DNA of 64,000 bases, from assembly GCF_030814115.1 (NCBI RefSeq), contig NZ_JAUSUP010000003.1:1-64000 (forward strand), read 5' to 3'. Source of the stretch: Alkalibacillus filiformis (GTDB lineage Bacteria; Bacillota; Bacilli; Bacillales; Alkalibacillaceae). A program made the translations under genes and the position numbers. Below are positions 2,416 through 44,729 of the stretch, piece after piece; the stretch's first letter is position 1; every line of letters starts with the position of its first letter. The notes under the pieces are model-generated. The model was given only the letters and a program-made list of their open reading frames with translations, did no database searches and was not told where the DNA came from.

Positions 2416-4692
2416 ATGACGACGATCACTAAACAAGACACTCTCGTTGTAACGAACGGAGAGAGAGAAACTTTTTCAGAAGAACGACTTAGTTTTTTTG
2501 TTAAGGAAGTAATAAAAGGGTACGAGCATTTAAGTGTTACTAGTTATGAAGAGAAGGTTATGAAAGCTGTACAAAGCAAAGATGAATTAACACCTGACCA
2601 AATTACGAACGAACTATTATTAAGAGGGTTAGAAAATATTAGTCCACAAGAACCTGATTGGACTTACGTTTGTGCCAATATATATTTAAAAAAGTTGTAC
2701 AAAGAAGCTGCGACTAACCGTGGCTATGATGGGACAACTAAGTATGGTTCTTACTATGAATTATTAAATATATTATCAAACGAAAACATATACAGCGATC
2801 AAATTTTAAATCAATATACTAAAGATGAAATTGATGAAGCTGCATCTTTCATCGTGCCTGAACGCGATCACTTCTTTACTTATATCGGTTTAAGAACGTT
2901 AGCTGACCGTTATTTAGCAAAAGATCATGAAGGCCATTACTATGAACTGCCACAAGAACGATTTCTAACGATTGCGATGACGTTAATGGTTAATGAACCA
3001 AAAGAAAAACGTCTTCAATTAATAGAAGAAGCTTACTGGGCATTAAGTAATCTTTATATGACGGTAGCGACTCCGACTTTATCAAATGCAGGGAAGTCTT
3101 ACGGCCAATTATCAAGTTGTTTTATCGATACGGTGGATGATAGTTTACAAGGTATTTATGATTCGAATACAGATATTGCTAATTTGTCGAAAAATGGTGG
3201 CGGAATTGGTGTTTATTTAGGGAAAATTCGTTCACACGGGAGCTCGATTAAAGGGTTTAAAGGTGTTTCAAGTGGTGTGATGCCATGGATGAAGCAGTTA
3301 AATAATACAGCAGTAAGTGTTGATCAACTCGGTCAAAGACAAGGGGCCATTGCGGTTTACTTGGATGTATGGCACCAGGATATTTTTAAGTTTTTAGATG
3401 CGAAGTTAAACAATGGTGACGAGCGCCAACGTACACATGATTTATTTACGGGTGTGTCACTGCCAGATCTATTTATGGAAAAGGTAGAAGCGCGTGAAGA
3501 TTGGTATTTATTTGACCCTCATGAAGTAAGAGACATAATGGGATTTAGCTTAGAAGATTATTATGATGAAAAACAAGGTGAAGGTTCATTTAGAGAAAAG
3601 TATGAAGCGTGTGTGCATAACCCGGAGCTATCAAAAGAGAAAGTGCCAGCGATTGATATTATGAAACGAATTATGGTTGGCCAGCTTGAGACTGGCACAC
3701 CTTATATGTTTTATCGTGACGAAGCGAATCGACAAAATCCAAACTCCCATCAAGGCATGATTTACTGTTCAAATCTATGTACTGAAATTATGCAAAATCA
3801 AAGTGCGACAACAGTTGAAGAGCAGTATACAGAGGATGGCAAGATCGTCATTACGAAAAGCCCTGGTGACTTCGTCGTTTGTAACCTATCAAGTATTAAT
3901 TTAGGTAAGGCTGTGCCAGATGATGTGCTAGAGCGATTAATTCCGATTCAAGTGAGAATGCTTGATAATGTGATTGATTTAAATACGATTCCAGTGCTAC
4001 AAGCGCAGTTAACGAATCAGAAGTACCGTGCAGTTGGATTAGGGACTTTTGGTTACCACCATTTACTCGCGCTAAAAGAGATTGCGTGGGAATCAGAAGA
4101 AGCAGTTGAATTTGCTGACGAGCTGTATGAAAAAGTGGCGTTCTTAACGATTCAGTCAAGTATGGAACTAGCCAAAGAGAAATGCCCTTACCCACTGTTT
4201 AAAGGGTCTAAATGGCATGATGGAAGTTATTTCGAAGGTAAAGGGTATAAAGGTGAAAAGTGGGATGAACTGAAGCAGGACGTGCATGAGCATGGCCTAA
4301 GAAATGGGTACTTAATGGCTGTAGCACCTAACTCAAGCACCAGTATTATTGCCGGAAGCACGGCTAGTATCGATCCGATTTTCAAAAAGTTTTATTCAGA
4401 AGAAAAGAAAGATTACAAGATTCCAGTAACAGCACCTGATTTAAGTCCTAAGACGTTCTGGTATTATAAGTCAGCTTATGACATCGATCATACGTGGACG
4501 ATTAAGCAAAACGCGAAACGTCAGAAACATATTGACCAGGCAATTTCGTTTAACTTTTACGTTAGAAACACGATTAAAGCAAAAGAATTACTAGACTTGC
4601 ATTTAACAGCTTGGCATTCAGGTTTTAAGACAACTTACTATACGAGATCAACATCATCAGACATAGAAGATTGTGAAAGCTGCGAATCATAA
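2416..4692 (+). CDS. nrdA: Ribonucleoside-diphosphate reductase, alpha (catalytic) subunit, class I
   Basis: It reduces ribonucleoside diphosphates to deoxyribonucleotides for DNA synthesis, working with the NrdB-type radical subunit encoded next. Residues 1-~95 form an ATP-cone, the allosteric activity switch that B. subtilis NrdE lacks in full form; 758 aa fits NrdA. Visible active-site parts are Cys235 (SSCFIDTV), Asn453-x-Cys455-x-Glu457 (NLCTE), Cys489 (VVCNLSS), and a C-terminal redox pair DCESCES. The start has AGGAGG 9 bases upstream, and nrdB follows after 11 bases in an operon. A cobalamin riboswitch and terminator in the leader imply repression when B12 is plentiful. Class Ia rather than Ib is judged from the ATP-cone. 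Confidence 0.95.
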   Translation: MTTITKQDTLVVTNGERETFSEERLSFFVKEVIKGYEHLSVTSYEEKVMKAVQSKDELTPDQITNELLLRGLENISPQEPDWTYVCANIYLKKLYKEAATNRGYDGTTKYGSYYELLNILSNENIYSDQILNQYTKDEIDEAASFIVPERDHFFTYIGLRTLADRYLAKDHEGHYYELPQERFLTIAMTLMVNEPKEKRLQLIEEAYWALSNLYMTVATPTLSNAGKSYGQLSSCFIDTVDDSLQGIYDSNTDIANLSKNGGGIGVYLGKIRSHGSSIKGFKGVSSGVMPWMKQLNNTAVSVDQLGQRQGAIAVYLDVWHQDIFKFLDAKLNNGDERQRTHDLFTGVSLPDLFMEKVEAREDWYLFDPHEVRDIMGFSLEDYYDEKQGEGSFREKYEACVHNPELSKEKVPAIDIMKRIMVGQLETGTPYMFYRDEANRQNPNSHQGMIYCSNLCTEIMQNQSATTVEEQYTEDGKIVITKSPGDFVVCNLSSINLGKAVPDDVLERLIPIQVRMLDNVIDLNTIPVLQAQLTNQKYRAVGLGTFGYHHLLALKEIAWESEEAVEFADELYEKVAFLTIQSSMELAKEKCPYPLFKGSKWHDGSYFEGKGYKGEKWDELKQDVHEHGLRNGYLMAVAPNSSTSIIAGSTASIDPIFKKFYSEEKKDYKIPVTAPDLSPKTFWYYKSAYDIDHTWTIKQNAKRQKHIDQAISFNFYVRNTIKAKELLDLHLTAWHSGFKTTYYTRSTSSDIEDCESCES

Positions 4693-4703
4693 GGAGGATT
4701 AAT

Positions 4704-5744
4704 ATGAACGAAACAATGCGTGAAAGAAAGTTATATGACATTCATGCACCGAACGCATCAACTGGCATTATTAACGGCGAAAGTTCCAACGTTTTAAACT
4801 GGGACGATGTTAGATTTAAATGGGCTTATCCGATGTATAAAAATATGTTAGCTAACTTTTGGACACCATTTGAAATCAACATGTCGAGTGACCAAAAACA
4901 GTGGGCAGAGTTAACAGATGCAGAACGTGAGTCGTTTAAGAAAATTATTGGACTGCTAGCTTTTTTAGACTCAGTTCAAACGGACTACTCCGCAAAAGTC
5001 GCCGATTACTTAACTGACTCGAGCTTGGCTGCATTAATGCAAGTGCTGTCGTTCCAAGAAGTTGTGCATAACCAGTCTTATTCATATGTTTTATCATCAC
5101 TCGTTGAAAAAGGCGAGCAAGATGAGATCTTTGAGTATTGGAAGAGTGATGACATTTTAATTGAACGTAATCAATTTATTGCTGATGGTTATGAACGATT
5201 CGTTAAAGAAAAATCACCACAAGCTTTTATTGAATCTGTGGTGTATGATGTCGTGTTAGAAGGGTTGTTTTTTTACGCAGGCTTTGCGTTTTTCTACAAC
5301 TTAGCACGCAATCAAAAGATGGTATCAACGAGCACAATGATCAATTATATTAATCGTGATGAGCTGTTACACGTTAATTTATTCGCACACATTTTCAAAG
5401 AAACGTTGAATGAAAACCCTGAACTTAATACAGAGGAAAACCTTCAGTTTGTGACAGAAACATTTAGAGAAGCAACAGAACTTGAAGTGAAGTGGGGCGA
5501 ACATATTATTGGTAACAAAATTGATGGGATCAACATGGACGAGCTAGAGCAATACATCCAACACACAGCAAACAAACGCTGTAAATTAATGGGCGCACCA
5601 GTTCCATTCCCAGAAGTAACAGAAAACCCACTTAAATGGATTAAAGCATACAAAGAAGTCGATGAAGGAAAGTCTGATTTCTTCGAGCAAAAATCAAGGC
5701 AGTATACGAAAGTATCGGATGATAATGGGTTTGATGAATTATAA
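4704..5744 (+). CDS. nrdB: Ribonucleoside-diphosphate reductase, beta (radical-generating) subunit
   Basis: This is the dimetal ferritin-fold subunit that makes the tyrosyl radical passed to the alpha subunit. All expected ligands can be read: Asp89, Glu119, His122, Glu186, Glu220 and His223 for the two metals. The radical-bearing Tyr126 sits four residues after His122, as in E. coli NrdB (His118/Tyr122). Length of 346 aa is normal. It lies 11 bases after nrdA with AAGGAGG before the ATG, so the two are co-transcribed and under the same riboswitch. No nrdI or thioredoxin-like nrdH neighbour is seen. A degraded insertion element follows its stop. Confidence 0.95.
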   Translation: MNETMRERKLYDIHAPNASTGIINGESSNVLNWDDVRFKWAYPMYKNMLANFWTPFEINMSSDQKQWAELTDAERESFKKIIGLLAFLDSVQTDYSAKVADYLTDSSLAALMQVLSFQEVVHNQSYSYVLSSLVEKGEQDEIFEYWKSDDILIERNQFIADGYERFVKEKSPQAFIESVVYDVVLEGLFFYAGFAFFYNLARNQKMVSTSTMINYINRDELLHVNLFAHIFKETLNENPELNTEENLQFVTETFREATELEVKWGEHIIGNKIDGINMDELEQYIQHTANKRCKLMGAPVPFPEVTENPLKWIKAYKEVDEGKSDFFEQKSRQYTKVSDDNGFDEL

Positions 5745-41332: not shown

Positions 41333-41460
41333 TGAGTGGATTTGATGGAATTGGTTTATCGAATGCCATAATGCTTGTCATTCTTGTATTGCTACTAATT
41401 TACGGGTCTACAAATATTGCTAATTTATCTGATGGTCCTGATTATGAAGATGATTTATAA
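41332..41460 (+). CDS. Small single-span membrane protein (42 aa)
   Basis: The frame begins in the TAATG overlap with the preceding gene and AAAGGA lies 9 bases upstream. A short polar start (SGFDGIGLS), one helix (AIMLVILVLLLIYG) and an acidic tail (DGPDYEDDL). Small YjcZ-like helices of this kind are common in bacilli, but the family cannot be named. Probably acts with the 109-aa protein. Confidence 0.7.
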   Translation: MSGFDGIGLSNAIMLVILVLLLIYGSTNIANLSDGPDYEDDL

Positions 41461-41466
41461 GTTGTA

Positions 41467-41499
41467 AGCGTCTAAACGAAGTGTTAGGCGCTTTTTTTT
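41467..41499 (+). terminator. Terminator of the 109-aa/42-aa pair
   Basis: Stem AGCGTCTAA (41467-41475) / TTAGGCGCT (41484-41492), then T run. Confidence 0.82.
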
Positions 41500-41585
41500 A
41501 ATTAGTTACCAATAAATGATAAAACATTCTGACAGTTCCCCTGTTATACTAGATACATAGTCGCTTTTATAGGGGGAGAGCATCT

Positions 41586-42545
41586 ATGAAAAAGAAAAAA
41601 TGGATCATCATTATAGGGGGAAGTTTCTTAACACTGTTATTAATCGTTAATATATTGGCAAGTAATTTCTTTTATAATTTAGCAATTAAGAGTGATGAGA
41701 AGGATTTTCTAGTCGAAGATGATGACTTAGTCGTTTCGGCAAGTGCGATGAATGTTTTCTTAGAAGGTGGATGGCGTGAATGGGTTAATACACAACCTTT
41801 TGAGCATTGGGAGTTAGCGTCGTTTGATGGCTTAACGTTAAAAGGCTATTACTTAGAGGCTGAAGAAGTAACAGATCAAACAGTTGTCTTCGCTCATGGT
41901 TACCTTGGTAGAGGAAGAGATATGGCGCTCTATGGTCAATATTATTATGAAGAGTTAGGTTATAATGTGTTGTTGTCTGATTTAAGAGGACACGGCGATA
42001 GTGAAGGTGATTATATTGGTTTTGGGTGGCATGACAGATTAGACTTAATTGATTGGGTTAACCGAGTCGTTGAACACCAAGGACCTGAGACGGAAGTTGT
42101 GTTGCACGGATTGTCTATGGGTGCTGCAGCTGTATTAATGGCAAGTGGTGAAGAGCTACCTAATCAAGTTAAAGCTATTGTTGCGGATAGTGGATATACA
42201 GGAGTATATGACTTGTTTGAACACCAAATGGATCGGATGTACAACCTACCTTCATTTCCTGTTTTACCGACAACTAGCTTAGTGACGAAAGTAAGAGCAG
42301 ATTATACCTTAAGAGAAGCATCAGCATTAGACCAAGTGAAACAAGCTGAAGTTCCAATATTATATTTTCACGGTAAAGATGATCAGTTTGTTCCTACATC
42401 AATGACAGAGGATTTAAATGAAGCAACTAATAGTGAAGCGGAAATTAAATTGTTCGAAGATGCAGGTCACGGTGAGGCCTTTGCGATCTATGAAGAAACG
42501 TACACAGCATGGTTAGAAGAGTTTTTAAATCAGCATATGCAGTAA
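41586..42545 (+). CDS. Membrane-anchored alpha/beta hydrolase
   Basis: A 319-aa protein with an N-terminal anchor (KKKKWIIIIGGSFLTLLLIVNILA) that places the hydrolase domain outside. Catalytic parts: FAHGYLGRG for the oxyanion hole, Ser in LHGLSMGAA, Asp in FHGKDDQFVP, His in EDAGHGEAF. The sequence style matches YqkD-type surface hydrolases of bacilli; substrate unknown. GGGGGAGAG precedes the ATG. It has its own terminator. Confidence 0.85.
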   Translation: MKKKKWIIIIGGSFLTLLLIVNILASNFFYNLAIKSDEKDFLVEDDDLVVSASAMNVFLEGGWREWVNTQPFEHWELASFDGLTLKGYYLEAEEVTDQTVVFAHGYLGRGRDMALYGQYYYEELGYNVLLSDLRGHGDSEGDYIGFGWHDRLDLIDWVNRVVEHQGPETEVVLHGLSMGAAAVLMASGEELPNQVKAIVADSGYTGVYDLFEHQMDRMYNLPSFPVLPTTSLVTKVRADYTLREASALDQVKQAEVPILYFHGKDDQFVPTSMTEDLNEATNSEAEIKLFEDAGHGEAFAIYEETYTAWLEEFLNQHMQ

Positions 42546-42554
42546 ATGTGAACC

Positions 42555-42588
42555 CAGTCATGGTAGTTACTCCATGGCTGTTTTTTTA
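42555..42588 (+). terminator. Terminator of the membrane-anchored hydrolase gene
   Basis: Stem CAGTCATGG (42555-42563) / CCATGGCTG (42572-42580), then seven T. Confidence 0.87.
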
Positions 42589-42670
42589 TTCCTAGTAGGA
42601 TGAGCAAGTTTTTTTACACAATGTCTTAAACTTGGTTAAATTAAAGACAGTATGAATTGGAGGGACTGAC

Positions 42671-42772
42671 ATGATCAAAAAGCTGTGGCAATCGTTATGA
42701 CCATCTCAAAAGCTCATATTCCTGGTAGGAATAATATTTGTTTTAGGAACGCTTGTTAATCGAGTCTTTTAA
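42671..42772 (+). CDS. 33-residue membrane ORF with in-frame TGA (candidate small selenoprotein)
   Basis: ATG 42671 has a good ribosome site (TTGGAGGGA, 8 bases upstream). The frame reads MIKKLWQSL, then TGA (42698-42700), then PSQKLIFLVGIIFVLGTLVN and RVF to TAA 42772. The part after TGA is a clean membrane helix with flanking charges, unlikely for random sequence. A SECIS-like hairpin follows the TGA. A shared terminator with the convergent peroxiredoxin closes the gene. If TGA is Sec, this is a single-span peptide with Sec at the membrane face. Alternatives: a TGG-to-TGA nonsense mutation of Trp10, or chance. No homologue is known to me. Confidence 0.45.
42698..42733 (+). promoter_or_regulatory. 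Candidate bSECIS element of the 33-residue ORF
   Basis: TGA at 42698-42700; stem TATTCC (42717-42722) / GGAATA (42728-42733); loop TGGTA starting 22 bases after the TGA with G in second place. This meets the bacterial SECIS spacing and loop rules. Confidence 0.5.
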
Positions 42773-42782
42773 AGTATGTAAA

Positions 42783-42810
42783 AAGCCGGATTGTCTTATA
42801 ATCCGGCTTA
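42783..42810. terminator. Bidirectional terminator (micro-ORF / peroxiredoxin)
   Basis: Stem AAGCCGGAT (42783-42791) / ATCCGGCTT (42801-42809), flanked by A on the left and weak T on the right. Confidence 0.8.
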
Positions 42811-42815
42811 ACTCA

Positions 42816-43427
42816 TTATATCCGTCCAATATCTTCAGGCCTTCTAGGAATGCCTGGCATACCTGGAACCCAGTCACCAGGTACACCGAGACCTGTCTCG
42901 CGGCCAAATTGAATCCCTTGTATGAGGCGTAACAATTCTTGACTGTTACGACCTACCTCACGTGGGTAAGTAATCTTTGAAACAATCGTACCTTCTGGGT
43001 CAACAATGACAGTTGTGCGGAATGCAGCACCGTTTTGTTCATCGATAGTACGATAAGCTCGACTAATTAATTGGTTACGATCACTGACTAAAGGGTATTG
43101 AACTTGGCGTGCTGATGGTGAAATTTCTTTAAAAATTTTATGGGCGTAAACACTATCTGTACTAATGGCTAAAACTTCAGTGTTAAGATCCTGCAACTCA
43201 GAATATATAGCAGCAACTGCTGCCAATTCAGTTGGTCAAACAAATGTAAAATCGCTGGCATAAAAAAACAGTACTACCCAAGAACCTCTGTAGTCTTCGA
43301 GATTTACTTGTTGGATATCTCCATTCACTATAGCTTCAGCTGTAAATAATGGAGCTGGATCGTCGCGAGTTGCGGTAAATGGGAGAGGTTCGTTTGCAAA
43401 ATCTTCGACAGTTAAATCATTAGACAA
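42816..43427 (-). CDS. Peroxiredoxin (AhpC/TSA type) with in-frame TGA, probable selenoprotein
   Basis: It reduces peroxides with a peroxidatic residue at the start of helix 2. Read through TGA (43238-43236) the 203-aa protein has [11 protein letters not shown]64-PTELAAVA, where all relatives have DFTFVCPTE. Residues after it continue the Prx fold ([28 protein letters not shown] with the active-site Arg). No other Cys remains, so it is a 1-Cys (1-Sec) type. TTG start at 43427 with AAGGAGG 8 bases upstream. A SECIS-like hairpin follows. Sec peroxiredoxins are known in clostridia. Divergent from an MFS gene. Confidence 0.9.
43209..43238 (-). promoter_or_regulatory. Candidate bSECIS element of the peroxiredoxin
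   Basis: On the minus strand TGA (43238-43236), 11 bases, then stem GGCAGC (43224-43219) / GCTGCT (43214-43209) with loop AGTT. The loop starts 17 bases after the TGA and contains G in its first two bases. Confidence 0.7.
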
Positions 43428-43496
43428 AAAGATAACCTCCTTTAGTTTAAATGTATGAATGTATTTCAAAATAAATGAAAATAGGGTGAACAATAG

Positions 43497-44729
43497 ATGG
43501 GAAAAGTAACAATCGGAATTAAAGAGAACTTGTTTCTATTTATGATGTTAGTTTTTACGAACTTTTTCGTTGGGGCAATGGTTGGTATTGAAAGAACGGT
43601 TCTACCCATTATAGGCGAAGAACATTTTGGACTAGCTTCAACAAGTGCTGCTTTATCATTCATTGTTAGCTTTGGTTTTTCAAAAGCAATTGTTAATTAT
43701 TTTGCAGGTGAAGTCGCAGACCGTTATGGAAGAAAGAGAGTATTAATTGTTGGTTGGGCGATTGGTTTTTTCGTTCCGATATTAATTATTTTTGCTCATG
43801 CTTGGTGGGTTATTGTAGTTGCTAATATTCTATTAGGAATTAATCAGGGTCTTGCGTGGTCAATGACCGTGAATATGAAAGTCGATATAGCTAAAGCTAA
43901 TCAACGTGGAACAGCTGTAGGGTTAAATGAGTTTGCAGGGTATTCTGGTGTTGCGATCTTTGCGGCCTTATCAGGTTATGTTGCTTCAAACTTTGCCTTA
44001 AGACCTGAACCCTTCTTATTAGGAATCGCTGTTTTTGTAATTGGAATTATTTTATCGTTACTCGTAAAAGACACTGAGCCTTTCTTAAAAGAGCAAGTTA
44101 AAGCTAAAACAACACAAAAAGATGAGGTTGGATTGTCAGCTAAAAAAGTATTCGCGTTAACGACATGGAAAGATCGCAATTTATCAGTTGCAAGTATCTC
44201 AGGTCTTACTACAAATTTGAAGGATGGTATGGCTTGGGGGTTATTTCCTTTATACTTTGCCACTGTTGGCTTAACTGTAAGTGAAATTGGCATTATTGTA
44301 GCGGCATACCCAGCTGCATGGGGTATTTTTCAATTGTTTACAGGTGTATTAAGTGATCGAATTGGTAGAAAGCTATTAATAACTTATGGGATGTACTTAC
44401 AGGCTATTTCTTTATGGTTAATTTTAATAGTAGATGGGTTTGTACTTTGGTTAATCGCAGCTGTTTTATTAGGGGTGGGGACAGCAATGGTTTATCCAAC
44501 CTTACAAGCTGCGATTAGTGATGTAGTAGCGCCAAGCTGGCGAGCTTCTTCAATGGGGGTTTATCGTTTTTGGCGAGATAGTGGTTATGCATTTGGCGCA
44601 ATTTTAGCAGGATTTTTTGCCGACTGGTTTAATCTTTTTTGGGCGATTGGCATTGTCGCCGTTCTACCTTTGATCGCAGGGTTGATGGCGCAAATTCGCA
44701 TGAATGAAACGTTAAAATCAAACAATTAG
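43497..44729 (+). CDS. MFS transporter
   Basis: A 410-aa, 12-helix major facilitator. The loop 2-3 signature appears as [13 protein letters not shown] and its half-two repeat as [13 protein letters not shown]. No substrate can be assigned; such proteins in bacilli are often drug or small-molecule exporters, and the central loop is short. RBS GGGTGA is modest. It is divergent from the peroxiredoxin with 69 bases between starts, so a shared promoter region is likely. Confidence 0.87.

Follow-up and report, generated by a model that had tools for sequence, protein, structure and literature searches.

A short reading frame in Alkalibacillus filiformis very probably encodes a 33-residue, single-pass membrane microprotein containing selenocysteine (Sec), produced by readthrough of a UGA at codon 10. 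The frame lies in a window of 64,000 nucleotides, by which we mean the whole stretch of DNA that was analysed. An earlier note, made from the letters alone, had read the frame as a selenoprotein, and comparison across genomes lends support to that reading through a conserved TGA, a constrained hairpin and the presence of Sec genes. At this comparative level, the conservation of the readthrough protein, the constraint on the hairpin and the occurrence of the Sec machinery in the genome are established, and we consider the insertion of Sec itself to be highly likely. In the proposed mechanism, Sec-tRNA, SelB and an in-frame bSECIS located 16 nt past the UGA would together insert Sec at codon 10. 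The product would consist of a short charged N-terminal helix, the motif WxxLUPSQ at a helix break, and then a membrane helix. The selenol would cap the N-terminal end of that membrane helix and face the cytoplasm. The features of the locus are collected in Table 1.

Table 1. Features in and around the micro-ORF, in window positions
Feature	Positions	Strand	Remarks
Micro-selenoprotein ORF (candidate)	42671..42772	+	33 aa via TGA readthrough, TAA stop; Sec would be residue 10
Ribosome-binding site GGAGGG	42659..42664	+	Read from sequence
TGA, proposed Sec codon	42698..42700	+	TGA in 11/12 homologues with E ≤ 1e-8
bSECIS-like hairpin TATTCC-TGGTA-GGAATA	42717..42733	+	Overlaps codons 16-21; frozen synonymous positions in codons 17-20
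Predicted membrane helix segment	42701..42766	+	Model helix residues 11-32; top hydrophobic 18-mer is residues 15-32
Terminator-like site in the gap between upstream hydrolase gene and micro-ORF	42555..42590	+	Consensus match only
Inverted repeat AAGCCGGATT...AATCCGGCTT, 3' of micro-ORF	42783..42809	+	Possible terminator ahead of convergent peroxiredoxin; read from sequence
Sec-type peroxiredoxin, TGA 43236-43238 (motif TFVU), own hairpin	42816..43493	-	Neighbour of micro-ORF

The predicted readthrough product reads MIKKLWQSL-U-PSQKLIFLVGIIFVLGTLVNRVF and ends at a TAA stop at 42770-42772, and the 16-nt spacer between the TGA and the hairpin is CCATCTCAAAAGCTCA. The coordinates and distances that the earlier note gave for the frame, the TGA, the spacer, the stem TATTCC/GGAATA and the loop TGGTA are correct. 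The good ribosome site that it described is the GGAGGG ahead of the ATG at 42671, and the adjoining peroxiredoxin with an in-frame TGA was likewise found, on the minus strand. The micro-ORF is set apart from its neighbours by a terminator-like site before it and an inverted repeat after it, followed by the convergent peroxiredoxin gene; since the two genes converge, they would belong to separate transcripts. The inverted repeat was not called by the terminator scan, and an Rfam scan of positions 41400-44000 gave no match. We scanned the 64-kb window mechanically on both strands, with criteria that were picked after the case had been seen: a 6-bp stem (G-T allowed), a loop of 3-6 having G among its first two bases, a spacing of 16-37 nt, a hydrophobic 18-mer, and 18-60 codons after the TGA. 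Of 196 TGA-interrupted frames, one passed them all, and it is the micro-ORF.

Homologues and the predicted protein

Twenty distinct intact members, including that of the window, carry TGA at the same codon and belong to at least six families of one class (f1, f13, f19, f25, f41 and f49, as grouped by the tool). This set was chosen as intact with TGA, so that its 20/20 is by selection, and the codon at the Sec position is read from the searches themselves. Searched with a profile, 397 order genomes yielded 44 with a match at E ≤ 0.05, and in the 12 homologues with E ≤ 1e-8 codon 10 was TGA in 11 and TAA in one; TGA is likewise present in the copy of G298 (E 1.7e-6). Among 100 relatives, a protein search matched 28 at E ≤ 1, with TGA in the strong matches of G000, G002, G007, G018, G012 and G004 and TAA in that of G021. 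Within family f13 (159 genomes), nine matches were found at E ≤ 0.001, seven of which are intact with TGA. A search of the phylum (398 genomes) gave six matches, namely the window's own copy, a Chryseomicrobium copy and four judged unrelated; the phylum match in G916 was rejected as a member, as it looks like chance. In addition, a DNA pattern scan of contigs from 84,980 species returned nine loci, including ones from Terrihalobacillus, Salirhabdus, Planococcus, Planomicrobium and Chryseomicrobium. Weak matches were read at the Sec column at those loci for which sequence had been extracted.

Seventeen of the 20 members are matches of protein searches made without any DNA condition, and the other three (L029, L031 and L032) were picked up only by the pattern scan; because the pattern required the hairpin letters TTCCTGG..GGAAT, hairpin conservation in these three is partly by selection. 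Two further members, L024 and L030, were found first by the pattern scan, sat as rows in the profile, and were then re-found by it. Left out of the 20 were G003 (degraded), G004 (start lost), G005 (frameshift), G021 (TAA), G117 (diverged) and G142 (cut short). Duplicates were counted once (L025 = L036, L069 = L024, L077 = L030), as were repeats of G000, G002, G004, G007, G012, G021 and G346.

The homologue search, which the earlier note had proposed as a check, returned homologues with neither TGG nor a Cys codon at the Sec position among the 12 with E ≤ 1e-8 from the 397 order genomes. Cys homologues are common to most selenoprotein families, though they are not universal. One weak f13 match with a short frame, in G409 (L075, E 9.1e-5), has a Cys codon at the Sec place. 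We rejected it as a Cys form and took it as chance: the Trp is absent, none of the sulfur genes has a relative in its 3-kb locus, and the genes beside it are capsule-like by reading; it may instead be a diverged Cys form. The other weak matches read as having Cys have E ≥ 0.01, and a query that itself carried C there would be expected to attract such matches. Three of the phylum matches, without a stop and with Ser at the Sec place (G743, G574 and G656), were also rejected, since what matches is the membrane portion at the N-terminus of a longer protein. By reading, we take the longer protein in L078, L079 and L080 to be FliF, and the resemblance of its FliF-like N-terminal part to the micro-ORF motif (LWEKLSPGRRIAFLAGV) is probably chance. 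Plasmids (PLSDB) and phages (INPHARED) gave no tblastn match. In viral contigs, 27 stretches fitted the back-translated pattern and none was confirmed. That pattern had C in place of Sec and could overlook copies with TGA; a DNA pattern written with TGA had 0 matches.

Members of the family are 31-33 residues long and share the motif W-x-x-L-U-P-S-Q. A hydrophobic 18-mer is present in all 16 members scored (mean Kyte-Doolittle 1.47 to 2.50), and none of these 16 has another Cys. AlphaFold2, run on alignment A2 with C in place of Sec, modelled helices at residues 2-8 and 11-32 with a break at Sec (mean pLDDT 87.6, pTM 0.43). Both the membrane location and the orientation are predictions from sequence. 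The net charge ahead of the top 18-mer is +1 to +4 in the 16 members, and the charge after it is 0 in 14 of them, -1 in L028 and +2 in L051. By the positive-inside rule, the charged flank lies on the cytoplasmic side, and it is a fair guess that the Sec faces the cytoplasm; this orientation is not firm, because the last residues of the 18-mer include Arg or Lys in some members. The arrangement of a selenol that caps a helix and has Pro next in sequence recalls thiol-redox sites. Given that the protein has neither Cys nor a second Sec, it would have to act with a partner protein or as a dimer.

Codon evolution and the hairpin

The 20 intact members align without gaps. After the TGA, conserved residues include P in 18 of the 20 members, S in all 20, Q in 19 and G in all 20, while third positions are free in codons 11-16. 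Pairwise differences at third positions are 0.48 for codons 11-16, 0.65 for codons 21-28 and just 0.025 for codons 17-20. For codons 11-16 and 21-28 taken together, pN/pS (Nei-Gojobori style) is 0.47 in frame versus 0.90 and 1.38 in the other two frames, and synonymous difference is 0.027 in hairpin codons 17-20 versus 0.65 and 0.74 in the flanking codons; the members are related by descent, so these substitution figures are not independent trials. The near-frozen hairpin codons are TTC-CTG-GYA-GGA, with Leu18 written as CTG in 20/20, although nearby ORFs (120 codons or longer) use CTG for ~13% of their Leu residues. Together, pN/pS and the third positions argue that the part after the UGA is protein, with an RNA element superimposed on codons 16-21.

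The published bSECIS model describes a 3-9 nt loop whose first two bases include G, on a stem of 4-16 bp and at a distance of 16-37 nt from the UGA (PMC13188914). The same source gives the loop as mostly N1-G-[G/U]-N-N2, with N1 and N2 paired, and sets an MFE of ≤ -7.5 kcal/mol (PMC13188914). The loop, stem length and spacing of the window hairpin fit this pattern, and the earlier note was right in matching its loop distance from the UGA and the G in the first two loop bases to the bSECIS rules. Hairpin conservation, which that note had also proposed to check, holds across the 20 members, with an invariant GG in the loop. The loop is U-GG-Y-A in 20/20, and the six inner pairs are unbroken in all 20 sequences, the most variable being GU10/GC7/AU3 and UA13/UG6/CG1; a seventh pair, the outermost that was counted, is open in 8/20. 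Paired cells amount to 94.3%, a value reached by 1/500 shuffles, and the covariation score was reached by 6/500. Double-sided change is confined to one pair and one cell, a value reached by 248/500 shuffles, and a control slid by +3 columns had two pairs and six cells double-changed, yet only 62.9% of its cells were paired.

By folding energy the hairpin of the window is weak. The 48-nt segment of the window has an MFE of -6.3 kcal/mol (z -0.27 against shuffles), above the -7.5 cut-off, and the window hairpin by itself -5.5 kcal/mol (z -1.87). The 48-nt segments of five relatives fold at -8.5 to -14.8 kcal/mol, L049 doing so by a different fold; in the other four the hairpin forms, with energies of -8.5 to -10.1 and z values of -0.21 to -1.30, which is not unusual. 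The case for the hairpin rests on its frozen synonymous sites and its loop, and not on energy or double-sided covariation.

Sec genes, gene neighbourhood and alternative readings

The earlier note had tied its reading to the presence of sel genes, and selA, selB and tRNA-Sec are all three in the window genome, where SelA (G000:C1:473119), SelB (C1:469075) and tRNA-Sec (C1:467608; 62.3 bits, cut-off 47) lie close together. Among the 20 intact carriers, 17 have selA and 17 have SelB over cut-off, and tRNA-Sec passed its cut-off in nine of the 10 carriers tested (10 of the 20). The carriers without SelA and SelB over cut-off are G287 (L044), G298 (L084) and Chryseomicrobium aureum (L030, L077); the last is also without tRNA-Sec over cut-off, and all three keep an intact micro-ORF and its hairpin. 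These carriers may be recent leftovers, yet they are real exceptions. In f13, selA occurs in 6/7 intact carriers versus 26/152 other genomes (Fisher p = 0.0003, kinship ignored), and in the order sample SelA occurs in 9/11 carriers versus 171/386 others, a weak link (p = 0.015, kinship again ignored). G117, from the same genus (g63) as G287, has no selA, and its copy has diverged at conserved sites, as would be expected if Sec use has been lost. Two selA matches each were seen in G510 and G216, the latter of which is listed at 8% contamination.

Copies of the gene have decayed in several genomes. In Salinibacillus kushneri (G021; L027, L050), UAA replaces UGA and the hairpin is kept, despite a genome with SelA, SelB and tRNA-Sec. 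In the window genus g1, of which six genomes were covered, the copy is intact in two and decayed in three, and protein and profile searches found no copy in the sixth (G001). The copy in G003 (L011) is degraded, with stops and with the part ahead of the hairpin apparently inverted by reading; G004 has no usual start ahead of the conserved part, and G005 has a frameshift. The micro-ORF gene is dispensable.

With respect to gene surroundings, 13 of the 20 loci have a same-strand DUF302 gene (PF03625) whose start is 86-184 nt past the TGA. In L033 the DUF302 gene is immediately upstream, and at the L051 locus (L084) it is 2.4 kb downstream; around the two Alkalibacillus copies, some 6-8 kb contained no DUF302 relative that could be found. 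Other neighbours vary and include rhodanese, TusA, TusA-rhodanese, DsrE, MBL-rhodanese, methyltransferase, DsbD/CcdA-like and TlpA-like genes and, by reading, TauE-like genes; Pfam domains of the neighbour cluster were assigned on the L086 set. In 17 of the 18 non-Alkalibacillus loci, a relative of rhodanese, TusA, DsrE, DUF302, or a DsbD- or TlpA-like protein lies within about 3.3 kb. At the remaining locus (L046/L082), the gene directly upstream encodes a pyridine-nucleotide oxidoreductase; its best NCBIfam match is sulfide quinone reductase, below cut-off (149 vs 525 bits). In L086, a 219-residue protein (4559-5218, minus strand) lies between DUF302 and the DsbD-like gene and has no Pfam or NCBIfam family, and proteins with similar starts were noticed by reading in L024 and L028.

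Both Alkalibacillus loci adjoin the Sec-peroxiredoxin instead of sulfur genes. The earlier note had suggested that the Sec could reduce or sense peroxides. Because only the two Alkalibacillus loci adjoin a peroxiredoxin, and 17 of the 18 others have sulfur-transfer, DUF302 or thiol-redox genes, we rejected a peroxide role through the neighbouring peroxiredoxin as a general function. The rhodanese, TusA, DsrE, MBL-fold and TauE neighbours are presumably Cst-like sulfur-transfer clusters, whose gene company is similar at many non-Alkalibacillus micro-ORF loci, and we know of no Cst-like cluster with a selenium microprotein. In our proposal, the membrane-tethered selenol would take and hand on sulfane sulfur or thiol electrons, with partners among the sulfur-trafficking and thiol-redox genes nearby (rhodanese, TusA, DsrE, DUF302, TauE-like and DsbD/TlpA-like). 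Such a role in sulfane-sulfur or thiol redox handling is possible, and we put it forward tentatively.

The main rival to a Sec microprotein is a selenium-responsive leader, in which the UGA and hairpin would act as a switch coupling selenium or SelB status to the downstream DUF302, with the peptide itself of minor importance. The ORF is tiny, the hairpin is strongly constrained, and the 13 loci with DUF302 starting within 200 nt downstream have the layout that a leader calls for. We nevertheless regard it as improbable, given that what follows the UGA shows protein-level conservation, with the in-frame pN/pS of 0.47, that all 16 scored members keep the hydrophobic 18-mer, and that DUF302 is upstream in L033, distant in L084 and was not found near the two Alkalibacillus copies.

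Readthrough could also proceed without Sec, if a near-cognate tRNA (Trp or other), together with the hairpin, yielded peptides of 9 and 33 residues. We hold this to be very unlikely: neither TGG nor any other sense codon occurs in the 12 homologues with E ≤ 1e-8, the hairpin is of bSECIS type with its invariant GG loop, carriers are enriched for SelA, and the copy in SelA-less G117 has diverged as would be expected once Sec use is lost, although the intact copies in the three SelA/SelB-less genomes would be easier to account for by such readthrough. A decaying or untranslated element, with the frame a pseudogene and the hairpin serving some other RNA role, would fit the decayed copies in G003, G004 and G005 and the TAA in G021, but is scarcely credible when twenty members are intact, span at least six families and show codon evolution that is specific to the frame. 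Decoding of the UGA as Sec in a membrane microprotein is the reading that we retain.

Relation to known selenoproteins

For 10 members, NCBIfam gave 0 families at E ≤ 1, and in Pfam nothing passed the cut-off, with one weak match (PF16080, E 0.012) in 1/10. A UPSQ motif is absent from the 119-family/subfamily table of a 2026 catalogue, in which some entries are motif-less and the comparison is by motif only (PMC13188914). The earlier note, too, had known of no described family of this kind. In the literature, no such protein was found among the matches listed, in a search whose scope excluded preprints and many journals. The mechanism is of a known type, its size and form are unusual, and the family appears to be undescribed.

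Like the bSECIS selenoproteins of the catalogue, the micro-ORF has an in-frame UGA, a hairpin 16-37 nt downstream and the Sec machinery; unlike them, it has 31-33 residues, one membrane helix and the motif WxxLUPSQ (PMC13188914). The nearest motif in the catalogue table is the UPGQ of PrdC form 2, as compared by motif and not by sequence (PMC13188914). Selenoprotein catalogues have largely been built from homology-detectable lengths, usually for families with Cys versions, and so a family of 31-33 residues with no convincing Cys version would escape both approaches. An ordinary gene caller would end the ORF at codon 9.

Small single-pass membrane selenoproteins are known in eukaryotes, where SELENOK and SELENOS carry Sec near the C-terminus and the SECIS in the 3'UTR; we know of no sequence relation between them and the micro-ORF. 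To our knowledge, the micro-ORF product would be among the smallest genetically encoded selenoproteins. It is plausible, though somewhat short of probable, that we are dealing with a Sec-only membrane family of 31-33 residues, among the smallest selenoproteins, whose single selenol, at the cytoplasmic face, works for bacterial sulfur-trafficking clusters as a persulfide or thiol-redox relay or sensor, and whose SECIS lies within the codons of the helix. If this is true, bacterial selenoproteomes hold unannotated membrane microproteins, one set of codons can serve both a bSECIS and a membrane helix, and selenium may join persulfide handling in Bacilli.

The window's peroxiredoxin has the genome, an in-frame UGA and a hairpin in common with the micro-ORF. 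It is a Sec-peroxiredoxin of known type, near the PrxU/AhpC models and below their cut-offs (153 bits against a cut-off of 270 for the PrxU/AhpC type NF040737). Proteins of the PrxU/AhpC type are soluble enzymes of about 200 residues with many Cys homologues. The hairpin of the window's peroxiredoxin is strong, with an AGUU loop and an MFE of -14.9.
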